IMG/VR virus record: IMGVR_UViG_3300043788_000045 | Location: 1-28,413 of that record | Direction: 5' to 3' (one strand) | Source: a virus | DNA: 28,413 nucleotides | Made by a program: the position numbers and the translations under genes | Notes under the pieces: model-generated | The model's database searches: none | What the model was told of the DNA's origin: nothing | The model's input: only the letters and a program-made list of their open reading frames with translations | Shown: piece after piece, positions 8,784 through 23,038 of the stretch | Numbering within the stretch: the stretch's first letter is position 1 | Layout: the number at the start of each line of letters is the position of its first letter

Positions 8784-9607
8784 TAGGCCGTCCGAGTCGG
8801 GATCACCCGCAGCACAACCTGGGTGTTCTGACCGGCCACGACCTTGATGCGCACATACGCCCATGGGTCGGCGTTGTCGGTCGTGACGCTGTCGGTGAAC
8901 GTGCCGTTGCCGTTGTTGGTCGCGGTCGCTGTGCCAACGCTCTCCACGTCATCCGGATAGTCGCCACCGTTCCAGGTGAGACCGGTGTCGTCGATGGGCG
9001 CGTAGGCCGTCTGACCGGCCGGCACGCCAGCGACCTTGCTCATGGCCATGCTGGTGTACTGGATGAACAGCTGCGTGTTGCTCAAGACAGTCTTGGACAG
9101 CACGATGATCTTGTGCTGGTAGTGCCCTCGGCGGTTCGCCAGGTTGATCCAGCGGCTGTAGCTCGATCCGTCCCAGCCAGCCTCGATGCTGGTCGCGGCG
9201 CCGCTGACGGCAATCTGGGTCACGACAGCGAACAGGCGCGCCGTGGTCACTGTGGCATTGCCGGCGGGCCCGGTGATGGTCTCGCTGATGGGCAGGCCAA
9301 CGCGGTCGAAGCCGGTGACGGTCACGTTGATGCCGGCATTGGTCGTGGCGCTGGCGCTGGTGATGGCGACAGTGCGCGGCGGGTTCAGGATGGCCGCGAC
9401 GTTGTTGGCGATCTGGATGCCGCCCTGGAAGTCACCACTGGCCTGCGTGCTGGGCTCGTTCGCGGTAAACGCGAGCGGACCGGTGGCGGCAGGCCACGTT
9501 GAGCCGGTGACGAGCGTCAGGTTGCCGGCAGCGCCGGGCGACTGTGAGGCCGCAATGGCGGCAAGGGATGCGGACAGAGCCGCAGCGACAGCTTGGAGAA
9601 CACGCAT
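8783..9607 (-). CDS. Structural-type beta protein, 274 aa (paralogue of 17992-18780)
   Basis: The start MRVLQ at 9607 is chosen because AAGGTG precedes it at the right distance. The first ~25 residues are Ala-rich and hydrophobic and could act as a signal or membrane-interacting segment. The core shares a motif series with the 262-residue protein at 17992-18780: GAAGNLTL, PPRTVAITSASATT, VTVTGFDRVGLPISETIT, TVTTARLFAVVTQIAVSGA and, further on, NLANRRGHY. This indicates a duplication. The C-terminal half has strands ending in QNTQVVLRVIPTRTA. It precedes and is translationally coupled to the connector gene, so a virion role is likely, but I do not recognise a named family. Confidence 0.7.
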   Translation of the reverse strand: MRVLQAVAAALSASLAAIAASQSPGAAGNLTLVTGSTWPAATGPLAFTANEPSTQASGDFQGGIQIANNVAAILNPPRTVAITSASATTNAGINVTVTGFDRVGLPISETITGPAGNATVTTARLFAVVTQIAVSGAATSIEAGWDGSSYSRWINLANRRGHYQHKIIVLSKTVLSNTQLFIQYTSMAMSKVAGVPAGQTAYAPIDDTGLTWNGGDYPDDVESVGTATATNNGNGTFTDSVTTDNADPWAYVRIKVVAGQNTQVVLRVIPTRTA

Positions 9608-9673
9608 GGGGCACCTTCTAGTCGGCACCTCTCGTCTGCGTAGGACTCACGGCACCGCTTGTTGTTGTGGCGC

Positions 9674-9682
9674 CAGCATACC
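9674..9682 (-). promoter_or_regulatory. Extended -10 promoter candidate before the tail module
   Basis: The minus strand reads TGGTATGCT, an extended -10 box (TGn plus TATGCT), 67 bases before the ATG of the 274-residue gene. No convincing -35 is visible. The flanks (TCA before, GGCGC after) resemble the boxes at 26666 and 5684. Its position at the head of the tail operon makes it a plausible late promoter. Confidence 0.4.
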
Positions 9683-9702
9683 ATGAGGCGCAAATCTGCC
9701 AT

Positions 9703-9849
9703 TTACGCTTCAGGGATTGGGCCCGGCGGGGCGTAGCTGGCCATGTCACAGCTCTTTGGACTCGCGTCCGCCAGGCCCTTTCGCGTCAGGTGGTTGATGG
9801 GCTGGACACCGCCATGTGGCAGTCTCCCATCCCCGTAATGCCTGAACAC
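9703..9849 (-). CDS. Small hypothetical protein, 48 aa
   Basis: The frame reads from a GTG at 9849 (a TTG at 9900 would give 65 residues). It contains GGVQPINHLTRKGLADASP and ends SCDMASYAPPGPIPEA, a soluble, Pro-rich tail that looks protein-like rather than random. No good ribosome site supports either start. It lies between the tRNA and the tail module. A competing frame (9746-9943) is rejected. Function unknown. Confidence 0.4.
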   Translation of the reverse strand: MFRHYGDGRLPHGGVQPINHLTRKGLADASPKSCDMASYAPPGPIPEA

Positions 9850-10003
9850 TGAGCGCGTTGCCGGCTTTAACGGCAGGTGTTTGGCTCTCGCACGCGCCAA
9901 GGCGGGAACCTGTCTTGAGTCTCACTCGACTTCGGCTGCGCACGCTCTTTAAACCAGAGAGCGCTAGGCTTTTACGGTCATGACCCGATGGTGAGCCGAA
10001 TTC
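9850..10003 (-). other. Gap downstream of the tRNA with a stem-loop
   Basis: No gene is supported here. The stretch 9943-9963 forms a stem-loop (arms CGCTCT and AGAGCG, nine-base loop). It has no U-run on the minus strand and so is not a classical terminator. It may be a processing or stability element 3' of the tRNA. Confidence 0.35.
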
Positions 10004-10080
10004 TGGTAGCGGGGGCGGGCTACGATCCCGCGACCTCTCGATTATGAGTCGAGCGCTCTACCTGGCTGAGCTACCCCGCA
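10004..10080 (-). tRNA. tRNA-Met/Ile2-type, anticodon CAU, CCA encoded
   Basis: A complete 77-base cloverleaf can be drawn. The acceptor 5' strand is TGCGGGG, then TA, D-stem GCTC/GAGC with a nine-base loop, anticodon stem CTCGA/TCGAG around the loop CTCATAA (anticodon CAT), variable loop AGGTC, T-stem GCGGG/CCCGC, acceptor 3' strand CCCCGCT, discriminator A and encoded CCA. Oddities: positions 1 and 72 are U-U, a mismatch at the site where initiator tRNAs also lack a pair. The D-stem 11-24 pair is C-G, as in elongators, and the anticodon stem lacks the three G-C pairs of initiators. The T-loop is ATCGTAG, so the usual U54-A58 pair is reversed. CAU could mean elongator Met, initiator, or Ile2 after lysidine modification. 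Confidence 0.9.
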
Positions 10081-10088
10081 TAAGACTG

Positions 10089-10117
10089 TTGGTGGAGGTT
10101 TTACGTCTTACCACCAA
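10089..10117 (-). promoter_or_regulatory. Stem-loop just upstream of the tRNA
   Basis: Perfect seven-base arms TTGGTGG and CCACCAA enclose 15 bases and end nine bases before the mature tRNA 5' end. It could be a leader element for RNase P processing or a remnant; no function is shown. The rest of the interval up to 10161 holds no supported gene. Confidence 0.35.
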
Positions 10118-10161
10118 GGACGGCGGCCTCATTGCGGAGACCTCTGGGGCTATGCCCACAA

Positions 10162-10365
10162 TCATCCTATCACGCGAGCGGGGTGCATCCATGTCAGCGC
10201 CAGGCCCGCGCCGCGGATGTGAAGGCTGCACGGCTCGCGCAGCCATGCCCAACCGGCTTCGATCCCAACCCATGCCAGCTGGACGTTATGCAAGTACCAG
10301 GATACCCACACCAGGCTGCTGCCACCGAAGCAAACGCTAATGCCCTTGATCCTGAACTTCTTCAC
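10162..10365 (-). CDS. Small Trp-rich hypothetical protein, 67 aa
   Basis: It starts at GTG 10365 behind a strong GGGGGAG ribosome site and overlaps the end of the holin-like gene by 29 bases. The protein is rich in Trp and hydrophobic residues (SLVWVSWYLHNVQLAWVG, then EAGWAWLREP) with a basic N-terminus (MKKFRIKG). It could be membrane-associated or an amphipathic beta structure. It is the last gene of the lysis-like cluster before the tRNA. No family recognised. Confidence 0.6.
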   Translation of the reverse strand: MKKFRIKGISVCFGGSSLVWVSWYLHNVQLAWVGIEAGWAWLREPCSLHIRGAGLALTWMHPARVIG

Positions 10366-10597
10366 GCTTCTCCCCCGTCGGCGTCACTCCGCCCGTGTCC
10401 AAGTAGAACTTGAAGGCTGCCACGAAGAGCCCGGTGAACAGGCCGACCATGGCGACATCCTCAGGCGTCACAGCGCGCGGCAGATGCATTGCCCATTCAC
10501 CCATTTTCCACGTGATGTGCATCAACCACAATAGGACGATACGTGGAATCACACGAAAATTGTTGATGTGGGTCGCGAAGCAGTCCAGGGCTCTCAT
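10337..10597 (-). CDS. Small membrane protein, holin candidate, 86 aa
   Basis: Two hydrophobic segments are visible: about residues 17-37 (IPRIVLLWLMHITWKMG) and 49-67 (VAMVGLFTGLFVAAFKFYLD). A polar, charged tail follows (TPTGEKREEVQDQGH). Length, two helices and charged C-terminus suit a class II holin, and the layout HINNxRVIPR-hydrophobic-xxW resembles small phage holins. The ATG overlaps the upstream stop as ATGA. The neighbouring genes at 10594-10836 and 10162-10365 are also small and membrane-like, but no endolysin motif is seen nearby, so the lysis role is inference. Confidence 0.6.
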   Translation of the reverse strand: MRALDCFATHINNFRVIPRIVLLWLMHITWKMGEWAMHLPRAVTPEDVAMVGLFTGLFVAAFKFYLDTGGVTPTGEKREEVQDQGH

Positions 10598-10836
10598 GAC
10601 TGCAGCCGCTTGATGGCTGCCTCGCAGCGCGCGATGTCATCGATGATGGCCTGATCGGTGTGGCCAGCGCTGATCTTGTTCAGGCCCAGGCCGATGGCTT
10701 GCTCGACCAGTCCGGTCTTGTGCTGCAGTGCCTTGCCGCACGCAGCGCTGATGGTGATGTCTCCGTCTTCGAAGTTGAAGACGACCGCCATGAACACGTC
10801 AAAGGCGATCAGGACTCGCAGTAGGTACGACAGCAT
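10594..10836 (-). CDS. Small protein with N-terminal membrane segment, 80 aa
   Basis: Residues 1-21 (MLSYLLRVLIAFDVFMAVVF) form a hydrophobic segment. The rest is polar and helical (SAACGKALQHKTG, ending CEAAIKRLQS). The start lies seven bases after an AAGAGG ribosome site. It is coupled to the holin candidate by an ATGA overlap. Such proteins occur in phage lysis cassettes next to holins; whether this one is a spanin-like or regulatory partner cannot be told. It has no lipobox and no catalytic motif. Confidence 0.62.
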   Translation of the reverse strand: MLSYLLRVLIAFDVFMAVVFNFEDGDITISAACGKALQHKTGLVEQAIGLGLNKISAGHTDQAIIDDIARCEAAIKRLQS

Positions 10837-10906
10837 TAGCAGGCCTCTTATTCACGGGCACGTTCTTGGGCGCCTCGACGATGGGCGGGATTATAACAGG
10901 GCTCAT
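10799..10906 (-). CDS. Small Pro/Val-rich ORF, 35 aa
   Basis: A short frame starts at an ATG with AAGGGA five bases upstream. It overlaps the start of the 80-residue membrane gene by 38 bases and is rich in Pro and Val (SPVIIPPIVEAPKNVPVNK). A TATAAT with a TGT extension lies inside it, so this stretch could instead be a promoter region. Function unknown. Confidence 0.4.
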   Translation of the reverse strand: MSPVIIPPIVEAPKNVPVNKRPANAVVPTASPDRL

Positions 10907-10922
10907 ACAGTCCCTTGCGTGC

Positions 10923-10942
10923 CGCCAGCCGGCGGGCTGGCG
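10923..10942 (-). promoter_or_regulatory. GC-rich stem-loop without U-run
   Basis: Perfect eight-base arms CGCCAGCC and GGCTGGCG surround a four-base loop between the 70-residue gene and the lysis-like cluster. No T-run follows on the minus strand, so it is not a standard intrinsic terminator. It could be an mRNA processing or pausing site. Confidence 0.4.
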
Positions 10943-10964
10943 ACAGTAGCTACAGCGGTACGGC

Positions 10965-11177
10965 TCAGCCACGCGGCGCGTCCTCGATCTGCTGGTCGGT
11001 GATCTGCCCCACGGTGCTACCGTCCTTGTCGACGATCTCGAACCAGGTGGCGTATTGATCCCCGCGGCACATCCGGTACGGGCCGTTGTCGACATGCTCG
11101 CTCTTGGAAGCCTTGAGGAACGGCTTGACCGTCTCGAACGTCAACCACAGATGATCTTCCTTGTGACTACCTTGCAT
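10965..11177 (-). CDS. Hypothetical protein, 70 aa
   Basis: The start overlaps the end of the oxidase-like gene (ATG inside its last codons), which suggests translational coupling. The protein is compact, with a beta-like centre (GPYRMCRGDQYATWFEIVDKDG) and an acidic/basic mix. It looks like a small domain and has no membrane segment. I recognise no family. Coupling to the oxidase candidate makes a functional link possible, but only by context. Confidence 0.6.
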   Translation of the reverse strand: MQGSHKEDHLWLTFETVKPFLKASKSEHVDNGPYRMCRGDQYATWFEIVDKDGSTVGQITDQQIEDAPRG

Positions 11178-11862
11178 TGGCTATCTCCTGCATGGCCGCC
11201 GCAAACATCCTGGCAGTCGCCAGGGCGGTGCGTTCGACGATGGCGAACCGACGTGGCGCAAGTAAGTCGATCTGCGCCAATAGGTCCAATGCGTGCGCCC
11301 TATCGTGCGTGGCGTGGTAGCGGATGGTGCGCAGCAAGGTCTTGCCCCAGTGCGCCTCCAGCATGCACAGCTCGCCCTCTGTCAGGGGGAAGCATTCGCC
11401 GATGATCTGCCAGCCAAGCAACGCGCACGGATCGATGAACTCGATGCTGTACATGACGGTGCCAATCAGGCTGGCCGCGATAAGTGGGCACTCGCCCTCG
11501 AAGTATCCGCTCTCGCGCAGGTCCTTCATCATCCAGCGGTCGTGATGCTTCTCCTCGCGCGCGTGGTTGCGGAAGTAGGCCGACAGCGTGAGCTGGTCAT
11601 GATCCTTGTTGGCCGCCTTGAGCAACATCATGTGGCTGGCCTTCATGGTCCAGTAGTTGAACTGGAGGATGGGCACCAGCTGCGTACTCAGGTCGGGCCG
11701 CGGCGTATATCCGCGCAGGATGGTGCCGACCCGCTTGACTAGCTCGCGGGACTGGCTTTGCGGTCTGAACTGGCAGTCCCGAATTTGCGTCCCTTGTCCG
11801 CCGCTGCGAATTCCTTCGCTACGCTCACCGGTGGCGGCTTCTTCATCCCGCTCGGTTTCCAC
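11167..11862 (-). CDS. Heme-oxygenase-like di-iron oxidase candidate, about 231 aa
   Basis: The C-terminal ~170 residues look all-helical and carry metal-ligand patterns of heme-oxygenase-like di-iron oxidases (iron-containing redox enzyme group, TenA/PqqC fold). In the numbering from GTG 11862 these are E103-x2-H106 within REEKHHDRW, a mid-protein acidic ligand (E141 or E156), and H183-x3-D187-x2-H190 within HATHDRAH. The known members UndA, CADD and SznF use this HxxxDxxH helix. A further Glu of the first helix is not evident around residues 61-85. A GGAGGGG site lies 11 bases before GTG 11862; a GTG at 11970 would add a low-complexity head. The first ~38 residues overlap another small gene in a different frame, so the true start is unsure. 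Substrate unknown. Confidence 0.65.
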   Translation of the reverse strand: METERDEEAATGERSEGIRSGGQGTQIRDCQFRPQSQSRELVKRVGTILRGYTPRPDLSTQLVPILQFNYWTMKASHMMLLKAANKDHDQLTLSAYFRNHAREEKHHDRWMMKDLRESGYFEGECPLIAASLIGTVMYSIEFIDPCALLGWQIIGECFPLTEGELCMLEAHWGKTLLRTIRYHATHDRAHALDLLAQIDLLAPRRFAIVERTALATARMFAAAMQEIANAR

Positions 11863-11915
11863 CCGTGCGCGATCCCCTCCATCAGTCGGTGTTGCTTCAA
11901 CGACTGGCTTGGCAT
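11739..11915 (-). CDS. Small basic hypothetical protein, 58 aa, overlapping the oxidase gene
   Basis: This frame runs from an ATG at 11915 to a TAG at 11739, in a different frame from the oxidase candidate. It contains MEGIAHGWKPSGMKKPPPVS followed by VAKEFAAADKGRKFG, a Lys/Pro-rich pattern seen in small phage proteins. The overlap of the two frames is 124 bases if the oxidase starts at 11862. The codon pattern here looks more natural than the low-complexity product of the other frame. Function unknown; no strong ribosome site. Confidence 0.45.
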   Translation of the reverse strand: MPSQSLKQHRLMEGIAHGWKPSGMKKPPPVSVAKEFAAADKGRKFGTASSDRKASPAS

Positions 11916-11924
11916 CTGCGCGGC

Positions 11925-12104
11925 TCACTGGTGTAGGTACGTCTGTTGCTGCGGGGCGCCAGACGGGCACGGCAGCTCGATCCCGAACTTACTGTCCTTG
12001 CTCAGTTGCTTGCTCAAGGCAGCCAGCACGGCTGGGTCGGGCTCCTGGGTGGCGTGGATCACGCCGTCACCTGTCACCGTCAGCAGTCCGCGCTCATCGC
12101 AGAC
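11925..12104 (-). pseudogene. In-frame continuation of the upstream gene after an amber codon
   Basis: The 59 codons after the TAG of the membrane-anchored gene stay open in the same frame up to a TGA at 11925. They encode a sensible protein (VCDERGLLTVTGDGVIHA, then PAVLAALSKQLSKDSKFG). No ATG, GTG or TTG with a ribosome site opens this frame separately; the first GTG is eleven codons in, without a Shine-Dalgarno sequence. It is therefore either the second half of a 120-residue protein read through the amber, or a gene broken by a CAG-to-TAG change. Other genes here (for example at 6405 and 5698) end with TAG, so general reassignment is unlikely. Confidence 0.5.
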
Positions 12105-12301: not shown

Positions 12302-12529
12302 CTAGTAGCACTGGAACTCGTGATCACCCTTTGTGCTCACGTCTTGACCCTTCATACGCTCATTTTCGCGCGAATGGAATGCAGGTTTGGTGAACCGATG
12401 GCTCGAAGCCACATATGGGTGATCGGCGTGTGAGGCCGGGTGGCTGTCTTCGCTTTGCGAGACCGGCTGATCGATCTCCTCGAAGCCATCCGGAGTGGGG
12501 TGATTGTGGCCGGGGTTGCGCTTGCTCAT
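12302..12529 (-). CDS. His-rich polar small protein, 75 aa
   Basis: The start MSKRN at 12529 is preferred over a TTG four codons upstream because TTGGAGA precedes it. The protein is hydrophilic and unusually rich in His and Ser (NPGHNHPTPDG, SHPASHADHPY, SSHRF) and low in hydrophobic residues. It is probably disordered or metal-binding. It lies in a tight run of small genes. Function unknown. Confidence 0.58.
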   Translation of the reverse strand: MSKRNPGHNHPTPDGFEEIDQPVSQSEDSHPASHADHPYVASSHRFTKPAFHSRENERMKGQDVSTKGDHEFQCY

Positions 12530-18847: not shown

Positions 18848-19534
18848 TCACACCCCCAAATATGTCTCGTACGGCTGGGCGGCGCGCAAGAAGGGGCGCA
18901 ACTCCGCACTGAACCGCCGGAAGGCCGGTATCAGCACGGCGCGCTCAGCCATGGTCATGCCGGCAAAGTGCGCGATAAAGTCCCCCACCTTCCACGGCGA
19001 GCGGCCCCGCACGTAGGAATTCAGCAGGTTGGTGTTGGCAACCTTGAGCACGTGCGCCTCGAAGAACTCGCGGCGGTCGGCCTGCGCGCGCACCGCGGCG
19101 GCATTTGCCCACCAGGGATGATCGATATACTCGGTGCAACCCCACAGCCATTGCAGGTACTCCATGGTGCGCGGATCGTTGCGGTAGATGGCCACGCCAT
19201 CGTTGAGGTTGTTCGCCCCGTCGATGGTGTAGGCGACCAGGCGGTCTGTCCCAGCCATGTGTTCGATCAACGGCTCCAGGCGAAACATCGGATTGGTCAC
19301 CATTGCATCAGCATCGATCCACACCAGCCAGTCAAGGTCGAATTGCTTCGCCATCAAAGTTTGCAGCAGTGGAATGCGCCCCCAGGACACCGGGCGATCT
19401 GGAGCCATGGTCTCTGCGGTAAGGTGGCATTGATAGCCGCGAAGTGCGCAATAATCCCAGACGCTATCGATGCAGGGCTTGAGGATTCGCCGGTATTCCA
19501 GATCACCGACACACAGTGAGACGATGCCGATCAT
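18848..19534 (-). CDS. GT34-like (galactosyltransferase GMA12/MNN10-type) glycosyltransferase, 228 aa
   Basis: It is a GT-A fold candidate. A short beta start (MIGIVSLCVGDLEYRR) and WGRIPLLQTLMAKQFDLDWLV lead into IDADAMVTNP, whose DxD motif would bind the sugar-nucleotide metal. Then follow NNLNDGVAIYRND and a C-terminal VGDFIAHFAGMT, all in the order of the GMA12/MNN10 group. It would transfer a sugar from a nucleotide donor in the cytoplasm; the acceptor is unknown. It overlaps the GT9-like gene by ATGA and is followed by a structural-type gene, so virion protein glycosylation is one possibility and host surface modification another. Confidence 0.75.
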   Translation of the reverse strand: MIGIVSLCVGDLEYRRILKPCIDSVWDYCALRGYQCHLTAETMAPDRPVSWGRIPLLQTLMAKQFDLDWLVWIDADAMVTNPMFRLEPLIEHMAGTDRLVAYTIDGANNLNDGVAIYRNDPRTMEYLQWLWGCTEYIDHPWWANAAAVRAQADRREFFEAHVLKVANTNLLNSYVRGRSPWKVGDFIAHFAGMTMAERAVLIPAFRRFSAELRPFLRAAQPYETYLGV

Positions 19535-20322
19535 GATTGGATGCCGGCGCGTGCCGGGTCCTCAGCTTCGAGTGCGGTGGGCAGCGGCGTGTTGGGCCAC
19601 ACGTACTTCCAGTTGTGCATCAGCACCGGCGGTCGCGACATGGGGCGCAGATGCAGCACCTTGGGCGAGTCGATGCCCATCTGGTCGGTGAGGTTTGCGT
19701 ACACGCTGTCGACCATGAAGATCTTGGCGGCGCGCTCGATGAGCAGCAGCCAGTCGAACAGGCAGTCGGTGTCGGGTCCAATGCGCACGATGGGCAGCCC
19801 CTCGGCACAGAACTCCAGAGGACCCTCTGCCACCGCCGGATCGAAGTCAGACCCCTCGGTGTGCGCGATGCAGTACGGACGGCCCGGCCACTTCATGTGG
19901 AACAGCTCGGTCTCGCGCTCCGGGAATCGGCTGATGCACTTGGGCAGGTTCCACTTCTCGCTGAACGGCACGCCGGCAATGGCGTACTTGATCTCATCGA
20001 ACGCCAGCGCGCGGCCGAGCGGAAGCAGCGACTGATGGCACTGCTGGTACAGGAAGTGGTAGTGGCTGACGCCGTGCTTGCGCAGCAGATCGACGGGATC
20101 TGAAATGTAGTAGCGCTCAGATCCCTTGGGCCCGCGGTAGTCAGCATGGTCTGGCTCGACCGGCAACCACTTCACGTACGGTGCCGTGTGCTGGAAGTGC
20201 GAAATGAATCTGGCATCGATTGGGAAGTGGACTTGGTGGCCCTGGCGGGTGAACCAGTGGGCTATGGGCAGCGCGACAATGATGTCGCCCAGGCCGCGGG
20301 TGTTGATCAGACCAATTTTCAC
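19531..20322 (-). CDS. GT9-like (heptosyltransferase-superfamily) GT-B protein, 263 aa
   Basis: The GTG start follows GGAGAG. The N-terminus MKIGLINTRGLGDIIVALPI has the RGLGDII Gly loop of GT9-type enzymes, then VHFPIDARF and VKWLPV strands. The C-terminal half has PIVRIG and ERAAKIFMVDSVYANLTDQM, resembling the nucleotide-sugar part of GT-B enzymes (vDS..ahla). At 263 residues it is shorter than typical heptosyltransferases (about 320-350), so one lobe may be trimmed. It is paired by an ATGA overlap with the GT34-like gene, suggesting two steps on the same acceptor. Donor and acceptor are unknown. Confidence 0.7.
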   Translation of the reverse strand: MKIGLINTRGLGDIIVALPIAHWFTRQGHQVHFPIDARFISHFQHTAPYVKWLPVEPDHADYRGPKGSERYYISDPVDLLRKHGVSHYHFLYQQCHQSLLPLGRALAFDEIKYAIAGVPFSEKWNLPKCISRFPERETELFHMKWPGRPYCIAHTEGSDFDPAVAEGPLEFCAEGLPIVRIGPDTDCLFDWLLLIERAAKIFMVDSVYANLTDQMGIDSPKVLHLRPMSRPPVLMHNWKYVWPNTPLPTALEAEDPARAGIQS

Positions 20323-22132: not shown

Positions 22133-23038
22133 TTAGATGCCGCCGGCAAAGATGCCGCGCCAGTTGCTCCAGCCCGTGCTGTAGCGCTCGCGACCCTTGT
22201 ACCGCATGTTGCCGGTCTCGAAGTGACCTTCCATGCCGCGCTTGATCTTGACGCGCACCATGTGCTTGAGACCGTTCTGGCAGTCCGTACGCAGGAACCA
22301 CTGCTCGGGGTCCGTCAGGTACGGGGTGGCCATGTAGCCTTCCGGGATCGAGCCGTCGTGACGCATGGCGTTCACGTCGTTGTCGCCGGTACCCGGTCGG
22401 TACGGGGAGTCCAGTAGCCGGGTCGCCACGAAGCGCAGGGCGTTCGGGATGATCAGCTTCTTGACCATGATGTTGATGAACTTGCCGCGGTCGTCCGTCC
22501 AGTTGCTGATCTGGATGATCGAGTCCTCCAGAGCATCCTCGGACAGGTCCGACGGGACCGCCAGGGTGTTGGACAGCACACCACCGCCGTACAGCGGGTG
22601 GTTCGCGTTCACCAGGGACACGCCGTCGCCGCCGACGTACGAGCTGGAGGTCGCGTTGTTGTACACGGCCGCCACGTTGACTTCCTTGGTCTCCTGGAAG
22701 CTGGCAGCCAGCGCCTTGGAGTAGCGCGCGCCCAGCGAACCATACAGACCGTCTTCCTCGGCCTCTTCGGTGATGTCGAAGGCCAGGGCGTAGGTCTTGT
22801 GGTTGTAGCGCGCAACCCATGCGTCGCTGGCGTTGTCGTAATCGACTGCTCCGCCTTCGTTCTTCACCGGGACCAGGCCGAAGTCGGTGTTGAACACCTC
22901 TTCCTCGAACGCCTTCTCGGAGTTTTCCAAGTCGACCATCTGACGCCACAGCTCGGGATACCGACGGTATTCCTTGCCGAAGACGGCATTGAGCCCCATC
23001 TGAAGCTCTTTGTAATGTGCAGCACGAGTGATTGTCAT
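22133..23038 (-). CDS. Major capsid protein, Mu gpT-like HK97 fold, 301 aa
   Basis: A strong GAAGAGAGAAA ribosome site precedes the ATG. The layout matches the Mu gpT-type coat group: N-terminal helix (HYKELQMGLNAVFGKEYR), acidic region (ITEEAEEDGLYG), NANHPLYGGGV turn, KLIIPNALRFVATRLL, GDNDVNAMRHDG, and the C-terminal strands YLTDPEQWFLRTDCQNGL and RERYSTGWSNWRGIFAGGI. It lacks a long N-terminal scaffolding domain, consistent with a separate scaffold gene upstream (25615-26610). It forms the icosahedral shell. The neighbours are the 218-residue capsid-associated protein upstream and a terminator downstream, so it is the end of the head operon. Confidence 0.85.
   Translation of the reverse strand: MTITRAAHYKELQMGLNAVFGKEYRRYPELWRQMVDLENSEKAFEEEVFNTDFGLVPVKNEGGAVDYDNASDAWVARYNHKTYALAFDITEEAEEDGLYGSLGARYSKALAASFQETKEVNVAAVYNNATSSSYVGGDGVSLVNANHPLYGGGVLSNTLAVPSDLSEDALEDSIIQISNWTDDRGKFINIMVKKLIIPNALRFVATRLLDSPYRPGTGDNDVNAMRHDGSIPEGYMATPYLTDPEQWFLRTDCQNGLKHMVRVKIKRGMEGHFETGNMRYKGRERYSTGWSNWRGIFAGGI

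Follow-up and report, generated by a model that had tools for sequence, protein, structure and literature searches.

Does a phage encode a working heme-oxygenase-like di-iron oxidase (HDO) and, if so, on what would such an enzyme act? The question is raised by a stretch of 28,413 bases (a linear IMG/VR virus record, referred to below as the window), which encodes a phage major head protein (PHROG, 3.3e-16; Pfam Phage_capsid_4, 4.1e-11) as well as virion and tail proteins, and in which an initial annotation had identified one ORF as a candidate oxidase of this type. HDOs activate O2 and form an enzyme class that is expanding rapidly; a 2026 review of it does not mention phages.

Family identity and predicted fold

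Searched on its own, the window protein matched nothing in Pfam, the PDB sequences, the IMG/VR patterns, the phage records or the genome collection. The family could be recognized because a tblastn search of plasmids with this protein yielded a single group of matches, in Sinorhizobium fredii (29.5% identity, E 4e-3), which opened the way. The S. fredii protein is a member of Pfam PF14518, 'Iron-containing redox enzyme' (E 1e-11), and a pairwise comparison revealed that it shares 29% identity over 163 aa with the phage protein (E 5e-12), as part of a common HO-type family. With a pattern built from this phage and S. fredii pair, two viral relatives were found in IMG/VR, i.e. the 50,423-base contig L004 and the 8,124-base contig L005, which is near-identical to L004 in this region. 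The profile of the two phage proteins aligned with the S. fredii protein at an hhalign probability of 97.6%.

Seventeen of the 18 members of our family alignment match PF14518 at E ≤ 0.1, and this is the only Pfam family that they match. The exception is the window protein: a PF14518 search of this protein alone and of the window gave no match, although its L004 relative is recognized at the same threshold. Since the phage-only profile retrieves bacterial proteins (E to 4.6e-17) and the phage relative matches PF14518 unaided, the motifs can be taken as not due to chance. Judged by sequence comparison, the phage protein is homologous to the PF14518 proteins.

The 231-aa form of the protein was modeled by AlphaFold2 from the 18-sequence alignment, with a pLDDT of 85.6 (below 50 for residues 1–32), while the core was predicted to be all-helical with a pLDDT of 93.2 and a pTM of 0.88. 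This conserved core (11170..11742, minus strand) is common to the phage relatives. A Foldseek comparison with the PDB placed 3DDE first, followed by CADD in its metal-bound form (8VA9; TM 0.78/0.71), TenA proteins, UndA, PolF, BesC and AetD, and the model together with these matches identifies the predicted fold as the all-helical one of the heme-oxygenase type. 3DDE (Sden_3740 of Shewanella denitrificans, a protein with an HO-like fold and without an assigned function) is the best PDB match by profile (1.5e-11) as well as by fold, with 12–13% identity to the phage protein in the structural alignment. CADD, UndA, AetD, PolF and BesC have folds similar to that of the phage core (TM 0.57–0.78, normalized by the phage core), but their identity to the phage protein in the structural alignment is 11–14% and their substrates differ.

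No family match indicative of a true heme oxygenase (HO-1, HmuO or cyanophage ho1) was found in Pfam, PHROG or NCBIfam, and searches of NCBIfam, PHROGs and PADLOC provided nothing further on this protein. Cyanophages and other phages have heme oxygenases that share the HO superfamily fold with the protein described here, but these degrade heme and belong to a different family. Among the BFVD viral protein models no Foldseek match passed E 0.001, the closest being a phage 'heme oxygenase' (TM 0.41/0.51, E 0.17).

Metal ligands

The string EEKHH at residues 103–107 satisfies the motif E-x2-H in two ways. The motif noted in the initial annotation thus exists, but its assignment to E103/H106 has to be shifted by one residue: H106 varies among the 18 homologues and H107 is invariant, and therefore the ligand pair is E104/H107 (11542..11553, minus strand; E86/H89 in MboA), followed by the invariant D108. 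The second motif, H-x3-D-x2-H at 183–190, is exact (HATHDRAH, i.e. H183, D187 and H190; 11293..11316, minus strand) and is located in helix 175–199. A glutamate that had been considered absent is provided by E156 (11395..11397, minus strand; E143 in MboA) in the second core helix (residues 147–157); this residue is invariant, and with it the canonical set of six ligands is complete.

In the alignment of 2 phage and 16 bacterial sequences the invariant residues include E103, E104, H107, D108, E156, H183, D187 and H190, and all six HDO ligands (E104, H107, E156, H183, D187 and H190) are among them. The majority set of HDOs comprises three histidines and three carboxylates on core helices 1–3, and about a quarter of these enzymes add a fourth carboxylate from an auxiliary helix, according to a 2026 review (PMC13108848). 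In the phage family the three histidines and three carboxylates are found on core helices 1–3. Because helix 127–142 is without an invariant acidic residue in the 18-sequence alignment, the ligand set is likely to be of the 3H/3C type rather than the SznF-like 3H/4C type.

The register of these residues was compared with that of the HDO MboA, the mangotoxin acetylenase (9YPI, 9YPL and 9YPM), whose crystallographic ligands are E86, H89, E143, H172, D176 and H181 (PMC13185094). The match of the family profile to MboA is weak (E 0.29); in the profile alignment E86, H89, E143, H172 and D176 nevertheless fall on the ligand columns of the family, and D90 on a further invariant column, with the crystallographic ligands at one constant numbering offset. 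H181 is reached after a two-residue insertion, MboA having H-x3-D-x4-H where the phage protein has H-x3-D-x2-H. The presence of an HDO-like oxidase in a phage, as originally proposed, is thus supported by the fold, the PF14518 homology and the six conserved ligands in the MboA register; the core model matches the CADD and UndA folds with which a comparison had been proposed, and in sequence the six ligands are aligned with those of MboA.

TenA structures are frequent among the fold matches, which might point to a thiaminase of the TenA/THI-4 type or to a metal-free enzyme resembling PqqC, but given six invariant HDO ligands and PF14518 as the sole Pfam family matched we regard such an identity as very improbable.

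Gene organization, start codon and selection

The gene order around the HDO gene is alike in the window and in L004, the adjacent ORFs in both being small phage ORFs, and the window protein shares 70–72% identity with its phage relatives over the core (residues 38–230). The coupled 70-aa ORF described in the initial annotation (10965..11177, minus strand; its ATG overlaps the HDO stop codon) is confirmed, and the same pair recurs in L004, where the ORF again follows the HDO gene immediately and shares 41% identity with that of the window. No relative of the 70-aa ORF was found among the phage records. The 'holin-like cluster' proposed for the neighborhood gained no support from family searches, in which a membrane-like ORF (10337–10597) matched only a PHROG of unknown function.

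The ORF annotated at 11167–11862 is real; it is, however, encoded by the minus strand (11862 to 11167, GTG start, 231 aa), and its N-terminus at 11862 is doubtful, because the sole start codon conserved between the two phages is GTG 11928 (5836 in L004) and selection in the overlapping segment acts in another frame. The HDO gene probably starts at GTG 11928 (11167..11928, minus strand; 253 aa), where a GTGA overlap with the stop codon of the preceding ORF is present in both the window and L004.

A 58-aa ORF (11739..11915, minus strand; counterpart L004:5846-6025) is embedded, in a different reading frame, in the 5′ end of the HDO gene; it matches phrog_16759 (E 1e-7), which has no function assigned. 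Substitutions at codon positions 1/2/3 of the overlap number 4/4/19 in the frame of the 58-aa ORF and 19/4/4 in the HDO frame, with dN/dS values of 0.09 and about 2.9, respectively. As judged from this pattern, selection in the overlap serves the 58-aa protein and the N-terminus of the HDO is unconstrained. The HDO core has a dN/dS of about 0.29, the same value as a neighboring phage gene (0.29), and on this measure the gene is under purifying selection. We also considered a programmed frameshift fusing the 58-aa ORF to the HDO; there is no evidence for such an event, and phrog_16759 (58 positions) has the ORF's own length.

From the 5′ quarter of the HDO gene, which overlaps the 58-aa gene and is free of constraint in its own frame, one might have suspected that the ORF is spurious or decaying and stays open because other genes overlap it; with a core that is 72% identical in the second phage, evolves at the dN/dS given above and retains its ligands, the probability of this explanation is close to nil.

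Several other differences between the two phages were observed. At 12311–11925 (minus strand) a single frame of the window is interrupted by a TAG (12107–12105), which leaves ORFs of 68 and 50 aa on its two sides; the counterpart in L004 is one unbroken lipoprotein-like ORF (to 5839), and therefore the window copy is either split or contains an in-frame amber codon. The major head protein (22133–23038, minus strand) is 98% identical in the 50-kb relative, while most other proteins are about 35–83% identical. In the same comparison nothing in the relative's contig corresponded to two adjacent ORFs of the window (18848–20322, minus strand), one of which matches Glyco_transf_34 (E 1e-13); the contig for its part encodes an RtcB RNA ligase (L026:12394-13635, minus strand; E 3.5e-125) and contains a 3,301-aa ORF (G001 32746-42651).

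The gene is rare in the collections searched. HDO homologues were found neither among 50,697 phage records, for which only chance-level fibritin matches were listed, nor in PHROGs. Several pattern sets (including a phage-only one) recovered the same two contigs from IMG/VR, such pattern scans being limited in sensitivity, and a search for further relatives via a neighboring structural gene again gave only these two. Searches of open-licence papers for phage proteins of PF14518, or for phage di-iron enzymes of the heme-oxygenase-like kind, provided nothing relevant.

Bacterial relatives and the YcaO-TfuA context

A scan of the genome collection revealed 17 loci with HDO relatives, all of which (17/17) have YcaO and TfuA nearby, within the retrieved locus; the patterns used included the S. 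fredii sequence, so this linkage count is biased. In rhizobia, PF14518 proteins of this kind (e.g. that of S. fredii, L002:5896-6597) have the six ligands in register with those of the phage protein, and Sinorhizobium YcaO-TfuA clusters have been reported to contain a heme-oxygenase-like gene (PMC8120280). In 9 of the 12 loci examined, YcaO is preceded on its own strand by a conserved ORF of 67–90 aa, which in rhizobia ends in variants of HIYLNKDHSIICGF, as expected of a precursor peptide. Precursor-like peptides with a HIYLNKDHSIICGF-type end were seen upstream of YcaO in L009, L012, L015, L017, L019, L020 and other loci.

The rhizobial proteins are bacterial and are encoded beside YcaO, TfuA and this precursor-like peptide, whereas no YcaO was seen in the phage contigs searched, i.e. 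those of the relatives (50.4 and 8.1 kb), which are possibly fragments from which partners could be missing. The 70-aa phage ORF has no visible similarity to the rhizobial precursor peptide.

The phage-only profile found matches in 6 of 398 sampled Pseudomonadota and in 5 of 284 sampled genomes of the phylum to which a Myxococcales bacterium (G005) belongs. Its strongest matches are mostly linked to YcaO-TfuA, but two of them (L036 and L037) have neither YcaO nor TfuA nearby. Another HDO without YcaO or TfuA (L046:7866-8540, minus strand) is divergent from a large ORF (8965–11577, plus strand) whose start, LLFSDIEGSTNLV, is cyclase-like, and the S. fredii cluster has a similar ORF next to it (L002:415-3147).

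In the phylogenetic tree the phage pair is sister to a group composed of the YcaO-TfuA-linked proteins and two unlinked HDOs, with moderate support (89/72 and 89/81), and the stem of the phage clade measures 2.75 changes per column. A position of the phage protein inside the RiPP-linked clade was rejected on the basis of this tree. Both observations bearing on membership of the YcaO-TfuA-linked subfamily, the lack of a neighboring YcaO and the position outside the linked clade, speak against it. Since the phage clade lies outside the linked group on a long stem, the transfer of a substrate type from these relatives is weak. In view of the biased scan and the tree position, an amino acid or peptide is taken here as no more than the likeliest substrate, and we do not class the protein as a RiPP enzyme.

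The long branch, together with a small conserved partner in the form of the 70-aa ORF, would also suit an HO-fold protein that binds metal without catalysis, for example one that holds iron or O2 as a scaffold or forms a complex with the 70-aa protein. This explanation appears improbable: the six ligands and their flanking residues are invariant despite 20–26% identity between the phage and bacterial proteins in the alignment, and selection on the gene is ordinary.

Proposed function

Two characterized enzymes bear on the possible reaction. VarO, the dehydrogenase of a YcaO-TfuA cluster, is HO-like and comes from the same context as the nearest bacterial kin of the phage protein, a likeness drawn by description only; deletion of varO in the thiovarsolin cluster abolishes the dehydrogenated products (PMC6511847). 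MboA, a tripeptide desaturase with MboB as its redox partner, shares about 30% identity with VarO. This kinship points to amino-acid or peptide substrates, and we consider it probable that the phage protein is an active O2-dependent HDO of the 3His/3carboxylate type, related to PF14518, that acts on an amino acid or a short peptide. Two irons (or Fe/Mn) would be bound through the six ligands, and the dimetal site would activate O2. The substrate, of host or phage origin, would then be oxidized, most likely by desaturation or hydroxylation. YcaO and TfuA, the thioamidation partners that most of the nearest bacterial kin have as neighbors, would play no part in this oxidation.

The E-x2-H spacing of UndA resembles that of the phage protein. 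This spacing, and the presence of CADD and UndA among the best fold matches, would fit a competent HDO that acts on a lipid or another small metabolite (a fatty acid, as in UndA, or a pABA-type self-sacrifice, as in CADD) and serves the metabolism of the infected host; we hold this to be unlikely, as the profile search finds 3DDE, MboA and AetD but neither UndA nor CADD, and the closest relatives in sequence are located in peptide clusters.

Within the reading that we prefer, an HDO acting on an amino acid or short peptide, the 70-aa protein may be a partner of the enzyme or its substrate. A more speculative idea, which we hold to be less likely than not, is that the phage introduces an oxidative change (desaturation or hydroxylation) into a peptide or amino acid while infecting its host, the coupled 70-aa protein being one possible target.

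Significance

The kind of enzyme described here is already known, and its phage setting is new as far as the collections searched show. Until now HDOs have been known from the synthesis of cofactors and from natural-product pathways of bacteria. With a phage-borne HDO that is under selection, has the full ligand set and stands apart from the RiPP genes of its kin, viruses would be added to the range of the class. The HDO gene and the 70-aa ORF form a compact two-gene unit, whose substrate and role are directly testable. If the phage does modify an amino acid or peptide inside the host by oxidation, as it may, this would be a form of post-translational or natural-product chemistry hitherto undescribed for viruses.
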